DNA of 64,000 bases from an uncultured Phycisphaerae bacterium (GTDB lineage Bacteria; Planctomycetota; Phycisphaerae; Sedimentisphaerales; Anaerohalosphaeraceae): NCBI GenBank assembly GCA_937949545.1, contig CALEDR010000002.1:62001-126000 (forward strand), given 5' to 3'. Shown piece after piece: positions 29,679 to 44,897 of the stretch. The notes beneath the pieces are model-generated. The model was not told the origin of the DNA. It did no database searches and worked only from the letters and a program-made list of their open reading frames with translations. Numbering within the stretch: the first letter of the stretch is position 1; every line of letters begins with the position of its first letter. The position numbers and the translations under genes were made by a program.

Positions 29679-30677
29679 TTACAGCATGTGCCGGGACCGC
29701 CTGAAATCGGGCGGCATTATTCTGTCTTGCCCGTGCTTGCGTCCGTCATTGGGGAACAAGGCCAGATGAATGACGGACTGTTCAAACCATAAGGCCTGTC
29801 CGAAGAGCTCATCGGATTGGAAGCGAAGTTCCTCTCCGAGTCCGACGGCCTTAAAGAGCTGGGTTTGACATCGTTTCAGGCCGTCGAGAAAGAATCGAGC
29901 GTTTTTTTCGTCGAGCGGTTTTGCGGGTTCGTTTCTCTGCTGGAGCGCCTCGAGGGCATAAGCAGCGGTCAGACGCGGCCAGATTTTTTTCAGGGTGTCG
30001 GGCTTATCGAAAACATCGAGTATCAGCACCCGTCCGCAGATGGCTGCGGCCACTCCGCAGGCTCCTTCCGGGTAAGGGAGGGCTTTTATAAAATCCTTCC
30101 AGCTGTCTTTTTGCTGGTCGAAGATATCTTTCATAGCTTTGGTCGGGGAAGGGACTTTGAGGCAATGGAGTGTTTGGTCCACCTCGTCCCAGATTTCGCC
30201 CTGATCAGCGATGGGTTGGCCGATGGAGCAGAGCGACTCGGTAACCCGGCAGGTTTTCGAGGCCCGCAATTTGGGGAACGAGAAGCCGCCGGAAACAAAA
30301 TCGGGCCGGCAGTGCTGCCAGCGGCCCTGTTCGACGCAGGAGACGGGAATATCCTGAACGGTTTGGGCCTCCAAAAGGATTGTGGTGTTCAGGATACGGT
30401 TTTGTTTGGCCCCGACGAGTTCTTCGCCGTCGAGCAGAAGGATGCGATGCGGACTTTTGTTTTCGACACGCAGGGAATTAACTTGTCCTGCTGTGCTGAC
30501 TTCCCGGACAGTCAGCAGCCCCTGCTCGATGGCTTCGGAAGCCAGCAGATAAGAGACCGAGCCGTTCAGTCCGGCCAGCGGAACCAGAGTTAAATTCCGA
30601 TGGCTTAGCGGCGGTCTGGTTTGAAGTTTTTCGGATAACTCTGCAAGAATTTGTACTCCCCTAACTTCTTCGTTCAT
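29679..30677 (-). CDS. ARPP-1 / DUF6569-type domain protein
   Basis: A 332-residue protein whose core LLLDGEELVGAKQNRILNTT followed by IPVSCVEQGRW matches my memory of the ARPP-1 (DUF6569) domain. That domain is associated with ADP-ribosylation-related and phosphatase genes and has no proven activity. There is no signal peptide. The start is ATG 30677, chosen because AGGAAGAG stands about five bases upstream. A longer frame to 30761 would run through a dispersed repeat. Downstream on the same strand come the folded element and an unknown gene. A WYL-type regulator lies upstream on the same strand. Confidence 0.72.
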   Translation of the reverse strand: MNEEVRGVQILAELSEKLQTRPPLSHRNLTLVPLAGLNGSVSYLLASEAIEQGLLTVREVSTAGQVNSLRVENKSPHRILLLDGEELVGAKQNRILNTTILLEAQTVQDIPVSCVEQGRWQHCRPDFVSGGFSFPKLRASKTCRVTESLCSIGQPIADQGEIWDEVDQTLHCLKVPSPTKAMKDIFDQQKDSWKDFIKALPYPEGACGVAAAICGRVLILDVFDKPDTLKKIWPRLTAAYALEALQQRNEPAKPLDEKNARFFLDGLKRCQTQLFKAVGLGEELRFQSDELFGQALWFEQSVIHLALFPNDGRKHGQDRIMPPDFRRSRHML

Positions 30678-30710
30678 TTTTGCTCTTCCTTTCAATCTAT
30701 TTTGAATTCT

Positions 30711-30756
30711 GAATTCCCGCTTTGAAACTACGGGATACGCTGCGGGAGTGACAATC
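30711..30756. repeat. Dispersed inverted repeat (TTCCCGC...GCGGGA)
   Basis: TTCCCGC (30714-30720) pairs with GCGGGA (30742-30747), followed by GTGACAAT. It is related to the repeat at 26.9 kb and lies in the leader of the ARPP-1-type gene. Confidence 0.45.
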
Positions 30757-30931
30757 TTCAAAGTTTGTTCGTTCCTTGTTTACTATACAGGGATGGTCTG
30801 ACAGAGCTGGTCAGGGGATTTTTGGGGGGGGAGGCGGATGGGGATGACAGAACTGGTCGGACCTACGATTTTTGGGGCCTGTAATTGAAAAAAAGAGCTA
30901 TAAGTAGGGGGTTGATGGGAAGAAAAAATTT

Positions 30932-35435: not shown

Positions 35436-36485
35436 TTAATTTCGCGCGTACTGGATGAGGGCGGAGGCGATTTTGTCAAGCGGTAAAACAACCTCTGCGG
35501 CCTCCAGTTTGATGGCCTCTTTGGGCATACCGAACACAATGCAGGTGGCCTCATCCTGTGCGATGGTGTGAGCGCCGGCCTGTCTCATAGCCAGCAGTCC
35601 CTTGGCGCCGTCGTTGCCCATGCCGGTGAGGATGGTGCCGACGGCGTTGGGGCCGGCATATTTGGCGACGGAATTGAAAAGGACTTCGACACTGGGTTTC
35701 TGATGACAGACGGCCGGCCCGTCTTTGATGGAGACATAGTAATTGGCGCCGGAGCGCTGAAGGACCATGTGGTAGCCGCCGGGGGCGATGAGAACTCTGC
35801 CGGGGATAACGGAATCGCCGTCGGCGGCTTCCTTGACCTGAACTTTGCATTCGCTGTTGAGCCGTTCCGCAAAGGAATGGGTGAATTGGGCGGGCATGTG
35901 CTGAACGACGACGGTTCCCGGACAGTCCGGCGGGAGGGCGGACAGGACACAAGTGAGGGCCTGGACACCGCCGGTGGAGGCGCCGATGGCCAAAATTTTG
36001 TTTGTCGTCTCGAGCATCGAGGCAGATTCGATGGGCTGAATCGGTTCAGCCTGAGTCGAGACGGGTTTGGGATAACGGCCTTTGGGAATAGCCAGGATGG
36101 TTTCGCAAAGCTGTTTGCAGGCATCTCCTACCGAGTAGGAAGGACCGGGTTTGGCCAGCACTTCGACGGCTCCGGAGGCGAGGGCTTCGATGGCGGTTTT
36201 GCTGCCCTGGGGGGTCAGCGAGCTGAAGATAATGACAGGCATCGGATGATACTTCATCAGTTTTTTGAGGAAAGTGACGCCGTCCATTCGGGGCATTTCG
36301 ACATCCAGAATCAACACATCAGGGTTGAGCTGGACGATTTTGTCCCGGGCGATATAGGGATCAGGAGCGGTGGCAATAACTTCAATAGACGGATGGGTTC
36401 CCAGCTGAGTACTGAGGATTTTTCGGACGATGGCGGAATCGTCGACGATCAGAACTTTGGTTGTTTCGAGTGTTGCAGAGGACAT
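35436..36485 (-). CDS. cheB: Chemotaxis protein-glutamate methylesterase/glutamine deamidase
   Basis: A 349-residue response regulator that demethylates chemoreceptors. The receiver domain (residues 8-130) has DDSAIVRK and the phosphoacceptor in LILDVEMPRMDG. After a linker the methylesterase domain shows its Ser-His-Asp residues in IGASTGGVQAL, VVQHMP and GMGNDGAKGL. It is the last gene of the chemotaxis operon, 11 bases after cheD. With CheR it provides the adaptation cycle. Confidence 0.97.
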   Translation of the reverse strand: MSSATLETTKVLIVDDSAIVRKILSTQLGTHPSIEVIATAPDPYIARDKIVQLNPDVLILDVEMPRMDGVTFLKKLMKYHPMPVIIFSSLTPQGSKTAIEALASGAVEVLAKPGPSYSVGDACKQLCETILAIPKGRYPKPVSTQAEPIQPIESASMLETTNKILAIGASTGGVQALTCVLSALPPDCPGTVVVQHMPAQFTHSFAERLNSECKVQVKEAADGDSVIPGRVLIAPGGYHMVLQRSGANYYVSIKDGPAVCHQKPSVEVLFNSVAKYAGPNAVGTILTGMGNDGAKGLLAMRQAGAHTIAQDEATCIVFGMPKEAIKLEAAEVVLPLDKIASALIQYARN

Positions 36486-36496
36486 GGGCGATTCCT

Positions 36497-36991
36497 TTAG
36501 AGATTTTTTTCAATTCCGCCGCTTTTGACCACGACGGTGCCGTCATTCATATACAGATAGAGATTGCGGGGCTGGTCGCCGCCGACGTCGTGACCTTTGA
36601 GAAGAAGGCCGTATTTCCAGAGAACCTTCCGAAGAGCCAGGAAGTTTCGCTTGCCAATGTCGAATCCTTGGGGCCCGGCCTTCATAGCGGCGCCGCCGGC
36701 AGCTTTCACAATAAGCCGGTATTTATCCGCACCGAGCTGCTGGAGATTTGCCATGAGGACATCCATGCCGGTATCGCAGAACAGGAACGGTTCGACTTCC
36801 GCTCTTTTGGGGTCCATGGCGGATTCCGGCAGCTGGTAATGAATCATTCCGCCAATGGTCAGGGCGGGGTCGTAGAGAGCAACCGCAATACAGGAGCCGA
36901 GCGAATAGGTGACGAGGACCGAATCGGGATCTGTTGAGATATGGGCATCGGAAACCTGGACAACGATATTTTTTTTCACGGCTGTAAGCAT
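36497..36991 (-). CDS. cheD: Chemoreceptor glutamine deamidase CheD
   Basis: A 164-residue protein that deamidates receptor glutamines and can bind CheC. The catalytic cysteine-histidine pair is in TYSLGSCIAVALYD and GGMIHYQLP. The C-terminal NDGTVVVKSGG is less standard. ATG 36991 was chosen because AGGAAA precedes it; the frame extends to 37102 inside cheR. It lies between cheR (end 36994) and cheB. Its presence alongside CheC-like proteins indicates the Bacillus/Thermotoga style of adaptation. Confidence 0.95.
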   Translation of the reverse strand: MLTAVKKNIVVQVSDAHISTDPDSVLVTYSLGSCIAVALYDPALTIGGMIHYQLPESAMDPKRAEVEPFLFCDTGMDVLMANLQQLGADKYRLIVKAAGGAAMKAGPQGFDIGKRNFLALRKVLWKYGLLLKGHDVGGDQPRNLYLYMNDGTVVVKSGGIEKNL

Positions 36992-36993
36992 AG

Positions 36994-37848
36994 TTATTTC
37001 CTGTAAATCGTTGGCTGCACGTATTGAAACGGGTGATAGATTCCAGTCAGGGATTCGGAATGACCGGTAAAAAAGTGTCCGCCGGTGTCCAGAACATTCC
37101 AAAAGCGGTTGACGAGTTTTTCCTGCGTGGGCTTATCGAAGTAGATCATCACATTTCTGCAGAAGATAAAGTCAAAGGGACCTCGGAAGGGCCAGGGGTC
37201 CATCAGGTTCAGATACTTAAAGGTCAGGATGCTCCGAACCGCCGGGGCGACTTCGTAGCACATTTCGCCGTTTTTTTCCTTTCGGGGGATTAAGTAGCGT
37301 TTTTTGAGGTTGGCGGAGACGGCGGCGACACGCTGGGCTTCATAGAGTCCCTGCTGGGCTGTCTGAAGGACGCGTGTGGAGATATCCGTGGCCAGAATCC
37401 GCACGTCCCAAGTCTGGTTTTTGGGAAGGGATTCGAGCAGGGTAATGGCCATGGAGTACGGTTCTTCACCGGAAGAACATCCAGCGCTCCAGGCGCGGAT
37501 TCGAAGTCGGCCGGTTTTCTGCTTTTCGGCCGCCAGTTCCGGCAGGAACTTCTGGGTAAGGTATTCAAAGTGTTTGGGTTCGCGGAAGAAGCTGGTCAGG
37601 TTGGTGCTGATTTGGTCAATCATTTCATAAAAGGTTTTCCCGCCGACATCCTGCAGGACGAAGTCGATGTATTCGTCGTAGGATTTCAGGTTGTATTTTC
37701 GGAGCATTTTGGCCAGGCGGGCGCGGACGAGTTCCTTTTTGCCTTCGTGAAGATTGATGCCGCAGTGCTCATAGACCAGCCGGCAAATACGGGCAAACTG
37801 CTCGTCCGTCAGAACCAGTTCGTCCAGAATGGGCTGAATCAGGGGCAT
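36994..37848 (-). CDS. cheR: Chemoreceptor methyltransferase CheR
   Basis: A 284-residue SAM-dependent glutamate methyltransferase. The N-terminal helical domain (DEQFARICRLVYEHCGINL) is followed by the SAM fold with AWSAGCSSGEEPYSMAI, ILATDISTRVL and DFIFCRNVMIYFDK. All family signatures are intact. It lies three bases upstream of cheD and ten bases after cheA. The single receptor of this operon lacks the NWETF-type C-terminal CheR tether. Confidence 0.97.
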   Translation of the reverse strand: MPLIQPILDELVLTDEQFARICRLVYEHCGINLHEGKKELVRARLAKMLRKYNLKSYDEYIDFVLQDVGGKTFYEMIDQISTNLTSFFREPKHFEYLTQKFLPELAAEKQKTGRLRIRAWSAGCSSGEEPYSMAITLLESLPKNQTWDVRILATDISTRVLQTAQQGLYEAQRVAAVSANLKKRYLIPRKEKNGEMCYEVAPAVRSILTFKYLNLMDPWPFRGPFDFIFCRNVMIYFDKPTQEKLVNRFWNVLDTGGHFFTGHSESLTGIYHPFQYVQPTIYRK

Positions 37849-37857
37849 ACGTTCACC

Positions 37858-39939
37858 TCACAGAGTTGCATCCGGGTTCTGGGCCAGTTCCAGAAGTCCC
37901 GGAACATCGAGAATCAAACTGATTTGGCCGTCTCCCATGATGGCACCGCCGGAGATGCCTTTGATTTTTCCCAATCCGCGGAGGGATTTGATGACCACCT
38001 GCTGCTGGCCGAGCAGGTCGTCCACCTGCAGGCAGCATTGGCGGCTTCCCTCCCCGACAACCACCAGAAGGGCCTGTTCGGGTTCTTCCACGGCGCCGGC
38101 GATGCGGAAGAGCTTGTAGAGCGGAACCAGCGGATGAAGCCGGCCGCGAATCATCACGACTTTGGAGCGGTTTCGAATGGTGGAAATCTGGTCCGGTGTC
38201 GGGCGCAGACTCTGAATGACGGAGCTGATCGGGATGATGTATCGCTGGGAGCCGATGGTGACGATTTGTCCGTCAATAATGGCCAAGGTCAGAGGCAGCC
38301 GAATCAAAAAGAGGGTTCCTTTGTTCGGCGTTGTCTTCATTTCGATCTTGCCGTTGAGGGCGTCGATATTTTTCTTGACAACATCCATACCGACGCCTCG
38401 CCCGGAAATTTCGGTGACTTTGTCGGCGGTGGAGAAGCCGGGTTTGAAAATCAGGTTGAGGAGTTCTTCTTCGCTAAGTTCCTGGTGTTCAGAAATTAGG
38501 CCTTTTTCGATAGCTTTCCTGCGGATTTTTTCGGCATTCAGGCCGCGTCCATCATCTTCGATTTCGATGACGATACTTCCGGCCTGATGATAGGCGGACA
38601 GACGCAGCAGACCCTGAGGCGATTTGCCTTTTTTGACGCGCTCCTCCGGCGGTTCGATGCCGTGATCGATAGAGTTTCGCACCATATGAATCAGCGGGTC
38701 GGTGATTTTGTCCACGATGGTGCGGTCCAGTTCGGTTTCTTCGCCGGAGGTCTGAAAATTGATGGGTTTGCCGGCTTTTTGGGAGAGGTCGCGGACGAGC
38801 CGGGCCATTTTCTGAAAGGCGCCCTGCATCGGAATCATCCGCATGGACATGGACAATTCCTGCAGGTCGCGGACGATTTTGGACTGGCTGGCGACTTTTC
38901 GGTAAAGGTCGCTGTCGGTGTGGCAGGTTTTGCTGACCTCTTCGGAAATCATCAGCTGGGCGACAGCCAGTTCGCCGGTCATATTGATTAGGTCATCCAG
39001 ACGTTTGGTGCTGACTTTGATGGTTTCTCGTGCGGCGGCAGAGGCCGCAACGGAGGAAACGGCGGTTTTTGTCTGGGATTCGGGCTGAAGAATAGGTTCA
39101 AGCTGGATGTCCTGTTGGATATCTGAGGGGGTCGACGCAGGTTCCGGCTGGAGTCTGCCTTCGACGCAGTCCTGGATTTTCTGAATCAGAGAAGGCAGGT
39201 CTTTCGGAGCCGGGATGGGTTGATTTTGAGCCAATCCGGCTTCGAGGTCCTTGAGCATGGTTTTGAGCATGTCGATGGAGCCGAAGGCCAGGTTGCTGGC
39301 GGCGCCGGACATCATCAGGGTGCCTTTGCGGGCACGGTCAAGCAGGTTTTCGGAGACATGAGCCAGCCGATTGATGGCGGTCAGATTCAGGAAGCCGGCC
39401 ATGCCCTTGATGGTATGGAAGCCGCGAAAAATCTGGTTCAGTGTTTCGGTATTGGTCGGGTCATTTTCGAGATTTAAAAGGGCTGTTTCCGCCGATTCAA
39501 GATGCTCGCGGGATTCGTTGAGGAAGTCCTGAACGAGCGGAGCATCATCGGGTGCAATGACCGTCGGCGGAAAGTCAGATGGTTCGGACGGGGCCGCCGA
39601 AGGCGGTGCGGAGCCGGAGGAAGGGGCTGAAGTGAGCGAGTGGGTCAGGCTCTGCAGCTGACTGACGGCTTTTGTAAGCTCCTGAAGCACTTGTTCGGAA
39701 GACTGGAGTTCCTGACGGAGGAGTTTTTCAATCTGTTCGGCTCCCAGATGAGCCAGGGATTGAGCTTGAAGCCGGGAGGAGTCCTCACAGCCGTTGAGGG
39801 CTTTGACGGCTTCTTCGATCTGTTTGAAGACGCCGGCGATTTCCTCGATGTCGCGGGTATCCTGGGGGTCCAGCAGGGGGATTTTGCCGGCGGCCTGTTC
39901 AATCAGTTCTGCGATTTTCACTGTCTTTTCCATAAACAT
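37858..39939 (-). CDS. cheA: Chemotaxis histidine kinase CheA
   Basis: A 693-residue sensor kinase. The Hpt domain is not at the N-terminus but at about 135-235, with the phospho-histidine near 175 (FRGFHTIKGMAGFL). About 100 helical residues and a Ser/Pro linker precede it. There is no recognisable P2 (CheY/CheB-binding) domain; a 50-residue linker leads to the dimerisation helices (305-375). The ATPase has HMVRNSIDHGIEPPEER (N box), IEDDGRGLN (G1) and GRGVGMDVV (G2). The C-terminal CheW-like domain covers about 555-690. It is the central gene of the operon. The unusual N-terminus could be a degenerate Hpt. Confidence 0.95.
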   Translation of the reverse strand: MFMEKTVKIAELIEQAAGKIPLLDPQDTRDIEEIAGVFKQIEEAVKALNGCEDSSRLQAQSLAHLGAEQIEKLLRQELQSSEQVLQELTKAVSQLQSLTHSLTSAPSSGSAPPSAAPSEPSDFPPTVIAPDDAPLVQDFLNESREHLESAETALLNLENDPTNTETLNQIFRGFHTIKGMAGFLNLTAINRLAHVSENLLDRARKGTLMMSGAASNLAFGSIDMLKTMLKDLEAGLAQNQPIPAPKDLPSLIQKIQDCVEGRLQPEPASTPSDIQQDIQLEPILQPESQTKTAVSSVAASAAARETIKVSTKRLDDLINMTGELAVAQLMISEEVSKTCHTDSDLYRKVASQSKIVRDLQELSMSMRMIPMQGAFQKMARLVRDLSQKAGKPINFQTSGEETELDRTIVDKITDPLIHMVRNSIDHGIEPPEERVKKGKSPQGLLRLSAYHQAGSIVIEIEDDGRGLNAEKIRRKAIEKGLISEHQELSEEELLNLIFKPGFSTADKVTEISGRGVGMDVVKKNIDALNGKIEMKTTPNKGTLFLIRLPLTLAIIDGQIVTIGSQRYIIPISSVIQSLRPTPDQISTIRNRSKVVMIRGRLHPLVPLYKLFRIAGAVEEPEQALLVVVGEGSRQCCLQVDDLLGQQQVVIKSLRGLGKIKGISGGAIMGDGQISLILDVPGLLELAQNPDATL

Positions 39940-39940
39940 T

Positions 39941-41257
39941 TCAATCCGTTTTTATGCAGTCTTTGGTCGGTTCCGGCTGAACGGCGGGGGAGCCGCCGGT
40001 CAGCGTTTTCAGCAGGGTTTGAAAGATTTCCGTAACGGTGACCAGTCCGGTGACGGTGCCGCCGGCGTCCTGTATGGGGACGGCGCGGATTTGGTGACGG
40101 CACATGATATCCATTAGCTTCCACATCGGCGTATCCGGCGAGGCCGTATGGACGGGTCGGCTCATAAACCATCGGATGCGAATCTGCAAAGAGGCCTCGT
40201 CGAGCGGCCGGCGATATTCTTCGAACGGGGTTCGCAGGTACGGACTGAGGGCGGCTTGGACGTCTCCCTGGGAGAGGATGCCGACCAGCTGGTCTTTTTC
40301 TTCTACCAGTGCGTATCGGGTGTTATTCTGCTGCATTCGCTGGCGGGCTGTTTCGACGGAATCATTGGGAGAAAGCCACAGGGGTTTTGGGTTCATAAAG
40401 ACCCGGGCCGGGCAGTTCAGAACAGCGGCGTCCAGCGGAGCGGCGTAGATTGCGTCCGGGGCGGACCGGACCCTCTGCTGAATGGCATTCCAGACCGGAT
40501 GGGGGTCGGTTGATTCCTGAGTTTGCGGACAGACCAGTGCAGCGTCAGCGGGTTCGGAGGGCTGCGGCGGTTGGACTGCAGCCGGCTCGGGCTGTGCCGG
40601 AGCTGCGGCGGATTCCGCCGGTGTTTGTGCCGGGGCTTCTGCCGGAGCGGGTTCTTCTTTGGGCGGTTCGAACAAAGCAGCGGGAAAGACCGCCGCCCCG
40701 TGGAAGGGCGGATAATCCCCCATGGTCATTTCCCAGACTATCAGCAGGCAGGTTGTGTCTTCCTTGAAACCGAATATATTGGCGGGTTTGTCCCATAGAT
40801 TGAGAATTTGGGTGTTGGTCTGGAGCAGGTGTTTATGGCCGGGCATCTGTTCGCGGAAGATTCGGTCCCAGGCGCCGACAATAAGGTTGCCGATTTCTTT
40901 GATGGTGTCGGAGAGTTTGAGGGCATTCTCGAGTGTGCCTTGTTTGCATTGCTCTTTGATTTTGTCCTCGGGGAGCATCACAATTGTTCCGGCTAGCAGA
41001 AAGAGGGCATTTTTATCGAGAAGCAGGTCGAAGCGTCCGCTCAGCGTCCCCTGCGCTTTGACGGAATAGACGGCGGCGAATTTGGGGAAGAAGGGTTTGA
41101 GTCTGTCAAGGGTCCCCGGAGCGGCCTGACAGAGCGCGCAGCTGATGGAGATGCCGAGCATTCCGTCCATGTCTTCGCAGAAGGTCTGCATGGACAGGGT
41201 GCTGACCTGCGGCAGCATCGTTTCGAGCGGGACGGATTGGACGGTTGGTTCTGTCAT
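39941..41257 (-). CDS. CheC/CheX-like domain fused to a CBS-domain pair
   Basis: A 438-residue protein inside the chemotaxis operon. Residues 1-190 resemble the CheC/CheX/FliY phosphatase fold, with the active-site helix SDTIKEIGNLIVGAW (ExxN, Glu121 and Asn124). Residues 197-240 are a Pro/Ala-rich linker. Residues 283-420 form two CBS repeats (VFMNPKPLWLSPNDSVETAR, QLVGILSQGDVQ; FMSRPVHTASPDTPMWKLMD, TVTGLVTVTEIFQ). CBS pairs bind adenosine nucleotides. The predicted role is dephosphorylating CheY-P, or binding CheD, under control of AMP/ATP or a similar ligand. I know of no described protein with this fusion. It lies one base upstream of cheA. Confidence 0.82.
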   Translation of the reverse strand: MTEPTVQSVPLETMLPQVSTLSMQTFCEDMDGMLGISISCALCQAAPGTLDRLKPFFPKFAAVYSVKAQGTLSGRFDLLLDKNALFLLAGTIVMLPEDKIKEQCKQGTLENALKLSDTIKEIGNLIVGAWDRIFREQMPGHKHLLQTNTQILNLWDKPANIFGFKEDTTCLLIVWEMTMGDYPPFHGAAVFPAALFEPPKEEPAPAEAPAQTPAESAAAPAQPEPAAVQPPQPSEPADAALVCPQTQESTDPHPVWNAIQQRVRSAPDAIYAAPLDAAVLNCPARVFMNPKPLWLSPNDSVETARQRMQQNNTRYALVEEKDQLVGILSQGDVQAALSPYLRTPFEEYRRPLDEASLQIRIRWFMSRPVHTASPDTPMWKLMDIMCRHQIRAVPIQDAGGTVTGLVTVTEIFQTLLKTLTGGSPAVQPEPTKDCIKTD

Positions 41258-41287: not shown

Positions 41288-41761
41288 TTATTTTCTTCGA
41301 TACAGAAGAAGGAATACGGCCGTAAACTCTTCATTGAGACAGACGGGTACGGCTACTTTTTCAGCGTCTTCGCCGAGTGTACTGTTCAATTCTCTGCCGG
41401 TGACCACCGTCGGAATGGAGACGGCGATGTTCGAGTAGATGTCCTGGAGGCGGCTTTTGATGCTTCCCATGACCATATTGGCCACCTCGCCGACGGCATC
41501 GCAGACTTCCTGGCGAGAGACCTCTGCGTTCGATTCCATGGCCAGCATGTTGCGGGCGATGGTCTGTCCGCAGGGCCAGGACAGGCTGATGGCCATGCAT
41601 CCTTCGATGTCGCCATTGAAGGTGATCGTGCCCAGCATGGACAGGGCGGATTCATCTATGGACGCCTGATCGGACGGCTCGATTTCCATGAAAATCATCG
41701 TTTCAAATACTTCTTTGGCGGCATCGAGTACAATTTCATGATAGGTTTTCTGTTCGATCAT
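41288..41761 (-). CDS. cheX: CheX-type CheY-P phosphatase
   Basis: A 157-residue protein of the CheC/CheX phosphatase family, which removes phosphate from CheY. The catalytic ExxN sits in DAVGEVANMVMGSIKS. The surrounding sheet motifs (MLGTITFNGDIEGCMAISLSW) match CheX. It has one active-site helix, as CheX does. It lies between cheY and the CheC-CBS gene. An alternative name is chemotaxis phosphatase, CheC/CheX superfamily. Confidence 0.9.
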   Translation of the reverse strand: MIEQKTYHEIVLDAAKEVFETMIFMEIEPSDQASIDESALSMLGTITFNGDIEGCMAISLSWPCGQTIARNMLAMESNAEVSRQEVCDAVGEVANMVMGSIKSRLQDIYSNIAVSIPTVVTGRELNSTLGEDAEKVAVPVCLNEEFTAVFLLLYRRK

Positions 41762-41793: not shown

Positions 41794-42174
41794 TCAGCTC
41801 ATAAACGGAGCCAGCTGTTCCTGAAATTTTTCCGGCGTAAACGGTTTGGTGATGTATCCGTTCGCCCCGCTGGCCAGAACGCTGTTGATCAAATCCTGTG
41901 CACTTTCCGTGGACACCATAATAATCTTGGTATTCTGGCAGTTGGGCAGCTGGCGGGCCTGTTTGACCATCTCTGTGCCGGGCATTTCAGGCATGTTGAT
42001 GTCGCACAGGACAATGTCCACCGGCGAGGCCTTCAGCTTTTCAATGGCTTCGGCTCCGTTGCCGGCTTCTTCGGTCCGGTCGAATTCGAGGCCGGACATT
42101 CGGACAGTGCGCATGATGATTTTCCGCATTGTGGCCGAATCATCAACAATCATCAGTGATTTTGGCATAGGCAA
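41794..42174 (-). CDS. cheY: Chemotaxis response regulator CheY
   Basis: A single-domain receiver of 126 residues. Acidic pair in MIVDDSATMRK, phosphoacceptor in VLCDINMPEMPG, Ser/Thr switch in IIMVSTES and conserved lysine in YITKPFTPE. The output partner (FliM/FliN or another motor) is not in the window. ATG 42174 or the second ATG at 42168 may be used. It lies between the receptor gene and cheX. Confidence 0.95.
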   Translation of the reverse strand: MPMPKSLMIVDDSATMRKIIMRTVRMSGLEFDRTEEAGNGAEAIEKLKASPVDIVLCDINMPEMPGTEMVKQARQLPNCQNTKIIMVSTESAQDLINSVLASGANGYITKPFTPEKFQEQLAPFMS

Positions 42175-42183
42175 ACTCCTTAC

Positions 42184-44328
42184 TTACGGGTTGCAAACCG
42201 ACAGGGATTCATGCTCGTCGAGCGGAATGGTCCGAGCGGCGCTGCTTCGGTTTGATGCTGCAGCAGGACCGCGGGCTCCTTCGGCGATTTGGTGGAAAAC
42301 CTGATTGGACAAAGACGGCTTCGGACCGGCTGTTGTCTTCTTTGGTTTTGTGGATGGATTGTCCGCCGTTCGGCTGCGGATAAGTGTTTGGAGCTGAGAG
42401 ACCGTCTGCTTCATTGATTCGGCCTGAGCGGCCAGTTCCTCGGCGGCGCTGGCGGATTCTTCGGCTCCGGCGGCATTCTGCTGGGTGACCTTGTCCATCT
42501 GGGAAACCGCTGAGTTAATCTGTTCGATGCCCTGGGCCTGTTCTTTGCAGGCGGCGGCGATTTCATTGACCAGAGCCGAAGTTTTTCCGATGCCGCCGAC
42601 AATCTGGTCGAGAGCGGTTTTGACTTCGTTGGAGATTTGAACACCGTTTTTGGCGTTCTTGACAGACTGCTCAATCAGTACAGTTGTTTTTTCCGCCGCC
42701 TCAGATGAACGAATCGCCAGATTCCGCACTTCTTCGGCGACGACCGCAAAGCCCTTTCCGGCTTCCCCGGCGCGAGCGGCTTCGACGGCGGCATTTAAGG
42801 CCAGCAGATTGGTCTGGAAGGCGATTTCATCGATGACTTTGATGATCTTGGCCGTTTCGTCGGAACTTTTCTGAATTGCCTCAATAGCCGTCATCATTTT
42901 CTGCATGGCCTTGGCGCCGTTGTCGGCGGCCTGCTGGGCGCCGGAGGCCAGGGTAGCGGCCTGGGCGGCGTTGTCGGCATTCTGCTTGGTCATCGAAGCC
43001 ATCTCTTCCAACGAAGAAGAGGTTTCCTCGAGCCCGGCGGCCTGCTCGGTCGTTCCTTGAGCGAGGGCCTGCGAAGCCGAAGCTACTTGACCGGAGGCAT
43101 CGGATACTTGTTCGGCCCCTGTCCATATCTGTTCTGCCACTCTGGTCAGCTGGCTGGTCAGTTTGTGCGAAACAAAGAACCAGATGGCCAGGGATACAAA
43201 CATGGAAACGGCTGCCAGCATTCCGATTTGAATCATCGAAGCACGGCCGATCGAACGAAACCGGCTGCTGGATTCATAAAATTCATCCAGATAGGAACTG
43301 ACGCCGATGACCCAGTCCCAGGGCTGGAAATACACGATGCGGGCGATTTTTTCCCGCGGGGCGGGTTCGCCCGGATTTTGCCAGGGGTATTTCTGTTCGG
43401 TGATTTCACCGGGTTTGGAGGCAAGGGCTTTTTTGCAGATTTCCTGGATGAAGAGCACCCCATTTGCATCCTTGGCATTCGCGATATTTTCCCCGTCTCG
43501 TTTGCCGTCTTTGGAGATTATGTAGCTGCCTTTGGAGTCCAGCACAAAGACATAGCCGGTCTTGCCGACAACGGTTTTCAGGATGGCCTGACGGATGTTG
43601 GTGCAGCGTTCCTGCGGAATCCCGACATACAGGGCCCCAATCACCTTTTTCTGAGCATCGAAAATCGGTTCATAGGCCGTGATGTACCAGCGGTCCACCA
43701 CAAAGGCCCTGCCTTCGTAGCGCTGGCCTTGCAGGACGGCGGAGACGACCGGATTGGGGGTTCCGTCCGGCTGGGTTTTGGGGATGAAGGTTCCGATGGC
43801 GCGGGTTCCGTCTTTCTTTTCGACATTGGTGCAGATCCGCAGCAGATCGCCCTGCTCATTCATCCGCTGGAAGATGGTGCAGGTGACGCCCATGAGGTCT
43901 TTGACCTTGTCAACAATCGGAGAGGGGACCTGCCGGCTAGTGTTTTGGCCCAGCCAGGTGTCGCCGACCATCATTTTGGGCAAGGTGACCGTTTGAGCGG
44001 CTTGGTTATACTGGTTGACGGCCTGCCAGGTTATCGGCGATTCATCCAAGCGGACCGACCCTGTCTGATTGAAGATGTCTCGTGCGACCCGCAGAGTTTG
44101 GTTGACGTTTTCCTGAATGGAACGCTGTTCATTCTCGAGCATATAATAGATACTCTGCGCAATATGATCGAGATCGCTGTAGGCCATTTTTGTGCTTTCC
44201 TCATCGGCGGCGAGAACCATCCGGCGGTTTTGAACGGTCACGATTGCCAGGATGAGCAGCAGCGGTGTCAGGGTTAAAATAAAACCGTACATGAGCAATT
44301 TTGTTTTGAGAGCCATTTTGTTCAGCAT
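42184..44328 (-). CDS. Methyl-accepting chemotaxis protein with dCache-type sensor
   Basis: A 714-residue transmembrane receptor. The N-terminal membrane helix ([20 protein letters not shown]) is followed by a large periplasmic sensor of Cache_3-Cache_2 type ([35 protein letters not shown]). A second helix follows ([21 protein letters not shown]) and a cytoplasmic signalling hairpin whose tip is [25 protein letters not shown] domain is not recognisable between helix and hairpin. Methylation-type sequences such as [13 protein letters not shown]-like repeats are present. The start was set to ATG 44328, six bases after AAGGAG. Cache sensors of this kind bind small organic acids or amino acids; the ligand is unknown here. 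Confidence 0.93.
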
Positions 44329-44384
44329 ACTCATCTCCTTAGCGAACTGCTTGGATCTGGACTTCAATGCTGTTTATGTTTGCT

Positions 44385-44897
44385 TTATTCGCAAACAGTT
44401 TCCGTAGAGGTCTCGTTCAGGCGAACACCGCCGAGAACCTGGTCAATGTCCAAGAGAATCTTGATGGACGAGCCGACTTTGCCGATGCCGAGAATGAAAT
44501 CGGTCTGAACGGCCGAACCGAGGTGAGAGGACTCTTCGATGTCTTCAGCGGCGATGTCGAGCACTTCCTGGACACGGTCCACAATCAGGCCGGCGTTGAA
44601 GGTTTTGCCGTTCTGGTTGATTTCCGCCACGATGATGCAGGTTTGGTCGGTGACTTCGGCGGCTTCCATTCCGAAGCGAAGGCGAAGGTCAATCACGGGG
44701 ATTACCTGTCCCCGCAGGTTGATGACGCCTTTGACAAATTCTGGCGTACGGGGAACGGCAGTGATATTCATATAGCCGATGATTTCCCGCACTTTCAGGA
44801 TTTCTAATCCGTACTCTTCTTTTCCCAGAGCAAAGGTTAGATATTTGCCTTCCTGGGCATTGTTTTTTGTGGTTTTTTCTTGTACGGCAGTTGTCAT
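44385..44897 (-). CDS. cheW: Chemotaxis coupling protein CheW
   Basis: A 170-residue scaffold linking receptor and CheA. KYLTFALGKEEYGLEILKVREII, the AVPRTPEFVKGVINLRGQVIPVIDL signature and GLIVDRVQEVLDI are standard. It has a 15-residue charged N-terminal tail and a short acidic C-terminal one. First gene of the operon; TTAGGAGTC lies ahead of the ATG. Confidence 0.96.
   Translation of the reverse strand: MTTAVQEKTTKNNAQEGKYLTFALGKEEYGLEILKVREIIGYMNITAVPRTPEFVKGVINLRGQVIPVIDLRLRFGMEAAEVTDQTCIIVAEINQNGKTFNAGLIVDRVQEVLDIAAEDIEESSHLGSAVQTDFILGIGKVGSSIKILLDIDQVLGGVRLNETSTETVCE

Follow-up and report, generated by a model that had tools for sequence, protein, structure and literature searches.

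CheC usually carries two ExxN sites, and the CheC-type consensus, reportedly given by Muff and Ordal in 2008, is D/S-x3-E-x2-N-x22-P. Accounts of energy taxis normally invoke receptors or control of the kinase. In CBS modules that bind adenosyl ligands, the positions G-x-x-S/T-x-x-D build the ribose/phosphate site, and CBS pairs may also have a purely structural role or recognize different ligands (SAM, c-di-AMP). Enzymes of the CheC/CheX/FliY type put an acidic residue and an Asn into CheY, where the Asn orients the attacking water and the acidic residue forms a salt bridge with the receiver lysine (PMC3035606). AcuB is a precedent for a CBS protein that reads energy charge and controls a partner (PMC13121692). 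An unusual fusion of CheC/CheX has been published for the Leptospirae, in which it is joined to CheA (PMC10542144).

We analyzed a window of 64,000 nucleotides, the whole stretch of DNA studied here, from an uncultured Phycisphaerae bacterium. One gene of the window, the focal gene, encodes an N-terminal domain of predicted CheC/FliY fold (N-domain) joined to a CBS pair. Taken singly, the components are all of known kinds; to our knowledge, both their combination and the swapping of C-terminal modules across the phylum are new. The sequence-only reading made earlier had considered the architecture undescribed, and we likewise found no published CheC/CheX-CBS fusion in the open-access papers searched, which were covered mostly at the level of titles and abstracts.

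The closest described proteins each share part of this design. FliY (Thermotoga maritima 4hyn; B. subtilis FliY) is the best fold match, is of similar length (about 200 aa), and has the ExxN helix; however, the focal protein has a CBS pair in place of the motor domain, with no FliN/SpoA domain, and ExxN is missing from the first of its active-site helices. CheX (PF13690; 1xko, 1squ, 3hzh) belongs to the same superfamily, has one active site, and is encoded next to the focal gene, and some orthologues of the focal protein give borderline matches to the Pfam CheX model. In contrast, the focal N-domain is about 40 residues longer than CheX, is nearer in fold to FliY/FliM, and is followed by CBS repeats. 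The canonical CheX next door gave a weak profile-profile match to the N-domain (probability 52%) and keeps Pro117, which the focal family does not have. CheC, including the class I CheC-CheD type, is alike in fold (2f9z, 1xkr). The focal operon also includes CheD, but the focal protein has one ExxN site rather than two. AcuB (9s4v) resembles the C-terminal part in fold and in its CBS pair with an adenosyl-site signature; it differs in that the focal protein has no ACT domain and carries a CheC-type effector in cis, whereas AcuB acts on AcuC in trans. The Leptospirae protein is fused to a kinase and not, as here, to a small-molecule sensor.

Operon context

The sequence-only reading placed the gene inside a chemotaxis operon, and this was borne out. 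The order on the minus strand is CheW, MCP, CheY, CheX, focal gene, CheA, CheR, CheD, and CheB (Table 1), with the focal gene between CheX and CheA. The start codon of CheA sits one base past the focal stop codon, and this gap suggests coupled translation of the two genes. The focal open reading frame has exactly the limits given in Table 1, begins with ATG, and encodes 438 aa. Elsewhere in the window, an ARPP-1 family protein (PF20208, E 1.8e-87) is encoded at 29679-30761 (-).

Table 1. Chemotaxis genes of the window and parts of the focal protein
Feature	Position	Strand	Basis
CheW	44385..44897	(-)	domain search
Chemoreceptor, Cache_3-Cache_2 and MCP signal domain	42184..44367	(-)	domain search
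CheY, single receiver domain	41794..42174	(-)	Pfam E 2.3e-26
CheX, canonical (D88-x3-E92-x2-N95, P117)	41288..41761	(-)	Pfam CheX E 4.6e-20, alignment
Focal gene, CheC/FliY-fold domain (predicted), linker, CBS pair	39941..41257	(-)	ORF call, orthologues
N-domain, residues 11-196, predicted CheC/FliY/FliM/CheX fold	40670..41227	(-)	AF2, Foldseek, Pfam CheX in orthologues
Active-site motif D117-x3-E121-x2-N124	40886..40909	(-)	phylum-wide N-domain alignment
Pro/Ala-rich linker, residues 197-280	40418..40669	(-)	AF2 pLDDT mostly under 50
Short conserved linker helix, family consensus GPVSxAIxxM	about 40466-40498	(-)	orthologue alignment
CBS repeat 1 (287-337), G326-x2-S329-x2-D332	40247..40399	(-)	Pfam
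Conserved insert SPYL...F..YRRP.DEASLQI, then CBS repeat 2, G404-x2-T407-x2-E410	40004..40246	(-)	orthologue alignment
CheA	37858..39939	(-)	ORF and domain search
CheR	36994..37848	(-)	domain search
CheD, open frame over end of CheR; CheD domain 36521-36832	36497..37102	(-)	domain search
CheB	35436..36485	(-)	domain search

Fold of the N-domain

The full-length AF2 model, for which 28 orthologues were the input, had confident domains at about residues 11-196 and 281-419, and the linker that separates them was disordered. When modeled separately, the N-domain reached a pLDDT of 93 and a pTM of 0.89, and its top PDB match in Foldseek was FliY 4hyn (E 1.1e-11, TM 0.72), followed by FliM, CheC (2f9z/1xkr), and CheX (1xko/1squ). 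When the N-domain profile was run against PDB sequences, 4hyn was the sole match, and a weak one (E 0.0049 over the whole sequence, 0.18 for the best single stretch). Pfam found only the CBS pair, and no CheC or CheX match, in the window copy of the protein; among orthologues, 14 of 40 N-domains gave Pfam CheX matches with E values of 0.1 or lower, the best being 1.1e-5. The orthologue at locus L058 scored 27.1 bits in the genome search, with neighbors, and 23.6 bits in hmmscan, against a cut-off of 27.

From these models the N-domain almost certainly has a CheC-type fold, and we regard the fold as settled. The sequence-only reading had called this half CheC/CheX-like; membership in the superfamily stands, but the predicted fold is nearer to FliY/FliM than to CheX. 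Because the fold and the catalytic pair are present and the consensus Pro is absent, we assigned the N-domain to the CL0355 superfamily and to no named subgroup. A plain duplicate of CheX is too simple an account, given the weak profile match to the adjacent CheX and the fold nearer FliY/FliM.

Active site

Residues 116-130 of the focal protein, SDTIKEIGNLIVGAW, contain Glu121 and Asn124. These were the only internal invariant columns (the start Met aside) in a 28-sequence phylum-wide alignment of the N-domain, in which identity to the window protein reaches down to 13-19%, and each was kept in 66 of 68 sequences of a larger set. Judged by alignment, the focal protein carries the D/S-x3-E-x2-N catalytic motif of the CheC/CheX/FliY superfamily, in agreement with the active-site helix picked out by the sequence-only reading. 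The ExxN pattern was not found in the first helix (residues 18-35) of the N-domain in the alignment. The Pro about 22 residues past the Asn, a feature of the CheC-type consensus and not needed for the fold, was not found in the orthologue alignment of the focal family, which has T/S at 147 and G/N/D at 148.

The two exceptions at Glu121, Gln at L052 and Asp at L111, both lie outside the CheY-CheX-focal gene triad, and the paralogue of L111 in the same genome, L100, lies in the triad with its motif intact. Two other genes outside the usual triad, L049 and L043, retain the motif. Loss outside the triad is what one would expect if selection maintained an action on CheY, although the cases are few. 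Two REC-type relatives, L175:1483-2478 and L179:1483-2478, keep the Glu and have lost the catalytic Asn (EFSRQ, EFSGQ), and perhaps bind without hydrolysis.

Linker and CBS pair

The Pro/Ala linker and the two CBS repeats of the sequence-only reading were both recovered, the linker as a stretch predicted to be disordered and the repeats as a Pfam CBS pair (residues 287-418, two stretches, E 9.3e-19). In Foldseek, the C-terminal part of the model matched CBS pairs including MJ1225, MJ0100, and AcuB. In the orthologue alignment, repeat 1 had Gly at 326 in 28/28, Ser/Thr at 329 in 28/28, and Asp at 332 in 27/28; repeat 2 had Gly at 404 and Thr/Ser at 407 in all 28, and Asp (16) or Glu (8) at 410. 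By these positions, both predicted CBS sites have the adenosyl-ligand signature G-x-x-S/T-x-x-D/E. Position 410 is Glu in the genus of the window (Gly in L036) instead of Asp, so the second site of that genus may differ.

Other proteins of the order carry the same CBS type, with an insert like SPYL...RRP.DDATLQI, joined to coiled coils. Two of these CBS/coiled-coil proteins, L095 and L098, have no CheC-fold domain and share a VSETIQKM-like linker helix as well as the CBS; the recurrence of this CBS type and its helix points to a mobile local module. Long coiled-coil-like proteins end in the same CBS type at L093:6435-9377, L094:454-4992, L095:6270-9062, and L096:6059-7453, and one begins with it at L097:4002-5396. 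Three of them (L093, L094, L096) have N-terminal CxxCGxxHWPxDPxC-like motifs.

These observations bear on whether the focal protein could be a phosphatase whose CBS pair only dimerizes or anchors it and senses nothing. CBS modules commonly dimerize, a scaffold role is plausible for the same CBS type on the long coiled coils, and relatives with no C-terminal domain at all exist. A pure scaffold, however, would not require ligand-site signatures that are near-invariant in both repeats, and we consider this explanation rather unlikely.

Distribution and synteny

The order of N-domain and CBS pair is kept in about 43 orthologues, all from one Planctomycetota order. Chance or an annotation artefact is ruled out by these orthologues, with their whole domain order and synteny. 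The contig scan with the single protein reached close relatives only, and the profile searches of genomes covered the phylum. Among 297 genomes of the class, matches to the N-domain with CBS were confined to that order, and matches outside it were CBS-only. The gene was carried by 31 of 59 genomes (that of the window and 58 relatives), in several families of the order. A plasmid search gave no match.

CheY, CheX, and the focal gene were contiguous in nearly all orthologue loci, often followed by CheA, CheR, and CheB. At some loci the triad had no adjacent CheA (for example, L050, L054-L058, and L060), and those at L054 and L058 adjoin flagellin and/or FliK genes. The orthologue at L043:5934-9599 is outside a chemotaxis operon, where a hybrid histidine kinase (HK-REC-Hpt) and a single receiver precede the CheC-fold/CBS gene, which keeps its Glu and Asn; a GH127 glycosidase gene adjoins this locus.

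Across the 59 genomes, the focal gene co-occurred with CheX (P 1e-6), CheD (P 3e-4), and flagellar switch genes (31/31 carriers versus 17/28 non-carriers; Fisher P 8e-5), P values that ignore shared ancestry and are descriptive only. CheD was found in 27 of the 31 carriers, and the 4 without it were the same 4 without CheX. Together with the CheD gene of the window operon and the presence of CheC, including its CheD complex 2f9z, among the fold matches, this co-occurrence is in line with the main rival explanation, a CheC-like role. In that case the N-domain would bind CheD (and CheY-P) and control the action of CheD on receptors, the CBS pair would tune the adaptation loop, and phosphatase activity would be secondary. 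The CheD-binding decoy raised by the sequence-only reading would likewise agree with these gene patterns. In contrast, the CheY-CheX triad persists without adjacent CheA, as at L054 and L058, and genomes G048 and G057 have the focal gene, its Glu and Asn intact, with no CheD detected. We hold a CheC-like role to be improbable, though still to be reckoned with.

Besides FliG, the genome of the window has a cluster of FliL-like, FliM-like, FliN, and FlhA genes, in which the FliM-like protein is divergent. The Pfam FliM middle-domain model missed such divergent proteins in the carriers examined, and FliM exceeded the Pfam cut-off in 0/31 carriers versus 6/28 non-carriers. Carriers without flagella, as the absence of Pfam FliM (PF02154) might suggest, are ruled out by their FliG and FliN/SpoA genes. 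Genes at L149:7015-7974 (the window genome) and L151:6116-7108 encode two such proteins, missed by the Pfam FliM model, whose N-terminal peptide resembles that of FliM; the L149 protein also has a SpoA domain. PilT-family genes were present in 59/59 genomes, which makes type IV pili as an output uninformative.

With FliM so divergent in carriers and the middle domains of FliY and FliM as the best fold matches, the focal protein could serve as a motor adaptor and not as a free phosphatase, either by joining or capping the C-ring or by retaining CheY-P at the switch. However, FliM-like and FliN genes already exist in the organism's flagellar operon, Pfam finds no SpoA/FliN domain in the focal protein, and the focal protein keeps the catalytic pair, whereas no ExxN was found in the matching region of the FliM-like protein of the window genome. 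We consider such an adaptor very unlikely.

Relatives in other classes

N-domain relatives were found in other Planctomycetota classes, 12 at first; once the profile was widened, 62 of 392 genomes had matches, a count that takes in the window's own group. At most of the examined loci with readable flanks in those classes, the N-domain gene again followed CheY and CheX. Some of these relatives end in a true receiver (L136 and others) and some in a degenerate one (L134, L138, L139, and L140, with a profile that matches response regulators at E 3e-4), and in the rest (L135 and others) no C-terminal domain follows. Triads of CheY, CheX, and a second CheC-fold gene in these non-CBS forms are present at L134, L136, L138, L139, L140, and L156-L179, and no description of them was found in the literature searched.

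When the four C-terminal forms were placed on a maximum-likelihood tree built from 68 N-domains, 4 changes were needed (minimum 3; shuffled mean 24), the extra change being L062, which is cut at a contig end. The CBS forms made up one clade, and likewise the REC and the degenerate REC forms. Each C-terminal form arose about once. The clades are set apart by long branches, which leaves their order uncertain, and no ancestral form is claimed. Exchange of the C-terminal module about once per clade fits a regulatory domain. More broadly, the second phosphatase of the Planctomycetota triad might be a regulated hub with an exchangeable input, a receiver or a CBS pair that senses energy charge, bypassing receptors and CheA; we offer this tentatively, as a somewhat doubtful extension.

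Proposed function

A nucleotide-gated CheY-P phosphatase, as put forward in the sequence-only reading, is our leading reading because the domains are real, the catalytic pair is constrained, and CBS signatures are present at both sites. The focal protein would be a second CheY-P phosphatase beside CheX, with activity set by an adenosyl ligand at its CBS pair, and would link metabolism to switching; as a whole, we give this an even chance. Its parts differ in strength. Action on CheY-P is quite probable, binding of an adenosyl ligand by the CBS pair is somewhat less so though still likely, and for an effect of the ligand on the activity or interactions of the protein the balance is level. The analysis shows the fold, the domain order, the constraint on the catalytic pair, the linkage to CheY and CheX, the swapping of modules among relatives, and the CBS signatures; that the protein hydrolyzes CheY-P, that it binds a nucleotide, and in which direction regulation would run are inferred.

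In the proposed mechanism, the FliY/CheC-type domain, with its one intact active site (E121/N124), would remove CheY-P. The C-terminal CBS pair would sense an adenosyl ligand, AMP, ADP, or ATP most likely, and the ligand state would shift the dimer or the domain arrangement and set the rate of CheY-P removal. This rate would couple metabolic state to flagellar switching.

The phosphatase reading is favored by the triad, which holds even without adjacent CheA and across the phylum, by the placement of most motif exceptions (L052, L111) outside it, and by the flagellar switch genes of every carrier. Against it, the CheC-type consensus Pro is not kept, two REC-type relatives have lost the Asn, and a second phosphatase looks redundant beside a CheX whose own site is intact. 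The long flexible linker makes tight allostery less obvious.

If true, such a phosphatase, with an adenosyl sensor of its own, would feed metabolic information to the motor directly and without receptors, and the energy state of the cell could steer swimming directly in one flagellated Planctomycetota order. The family also lends itself to comparison: depending on the clade, the same phosphatase-like domain is followed by CBS repeats, by an intact or a degenerate receiver, or by no module, so side-by-side assays could reveal what the module does.
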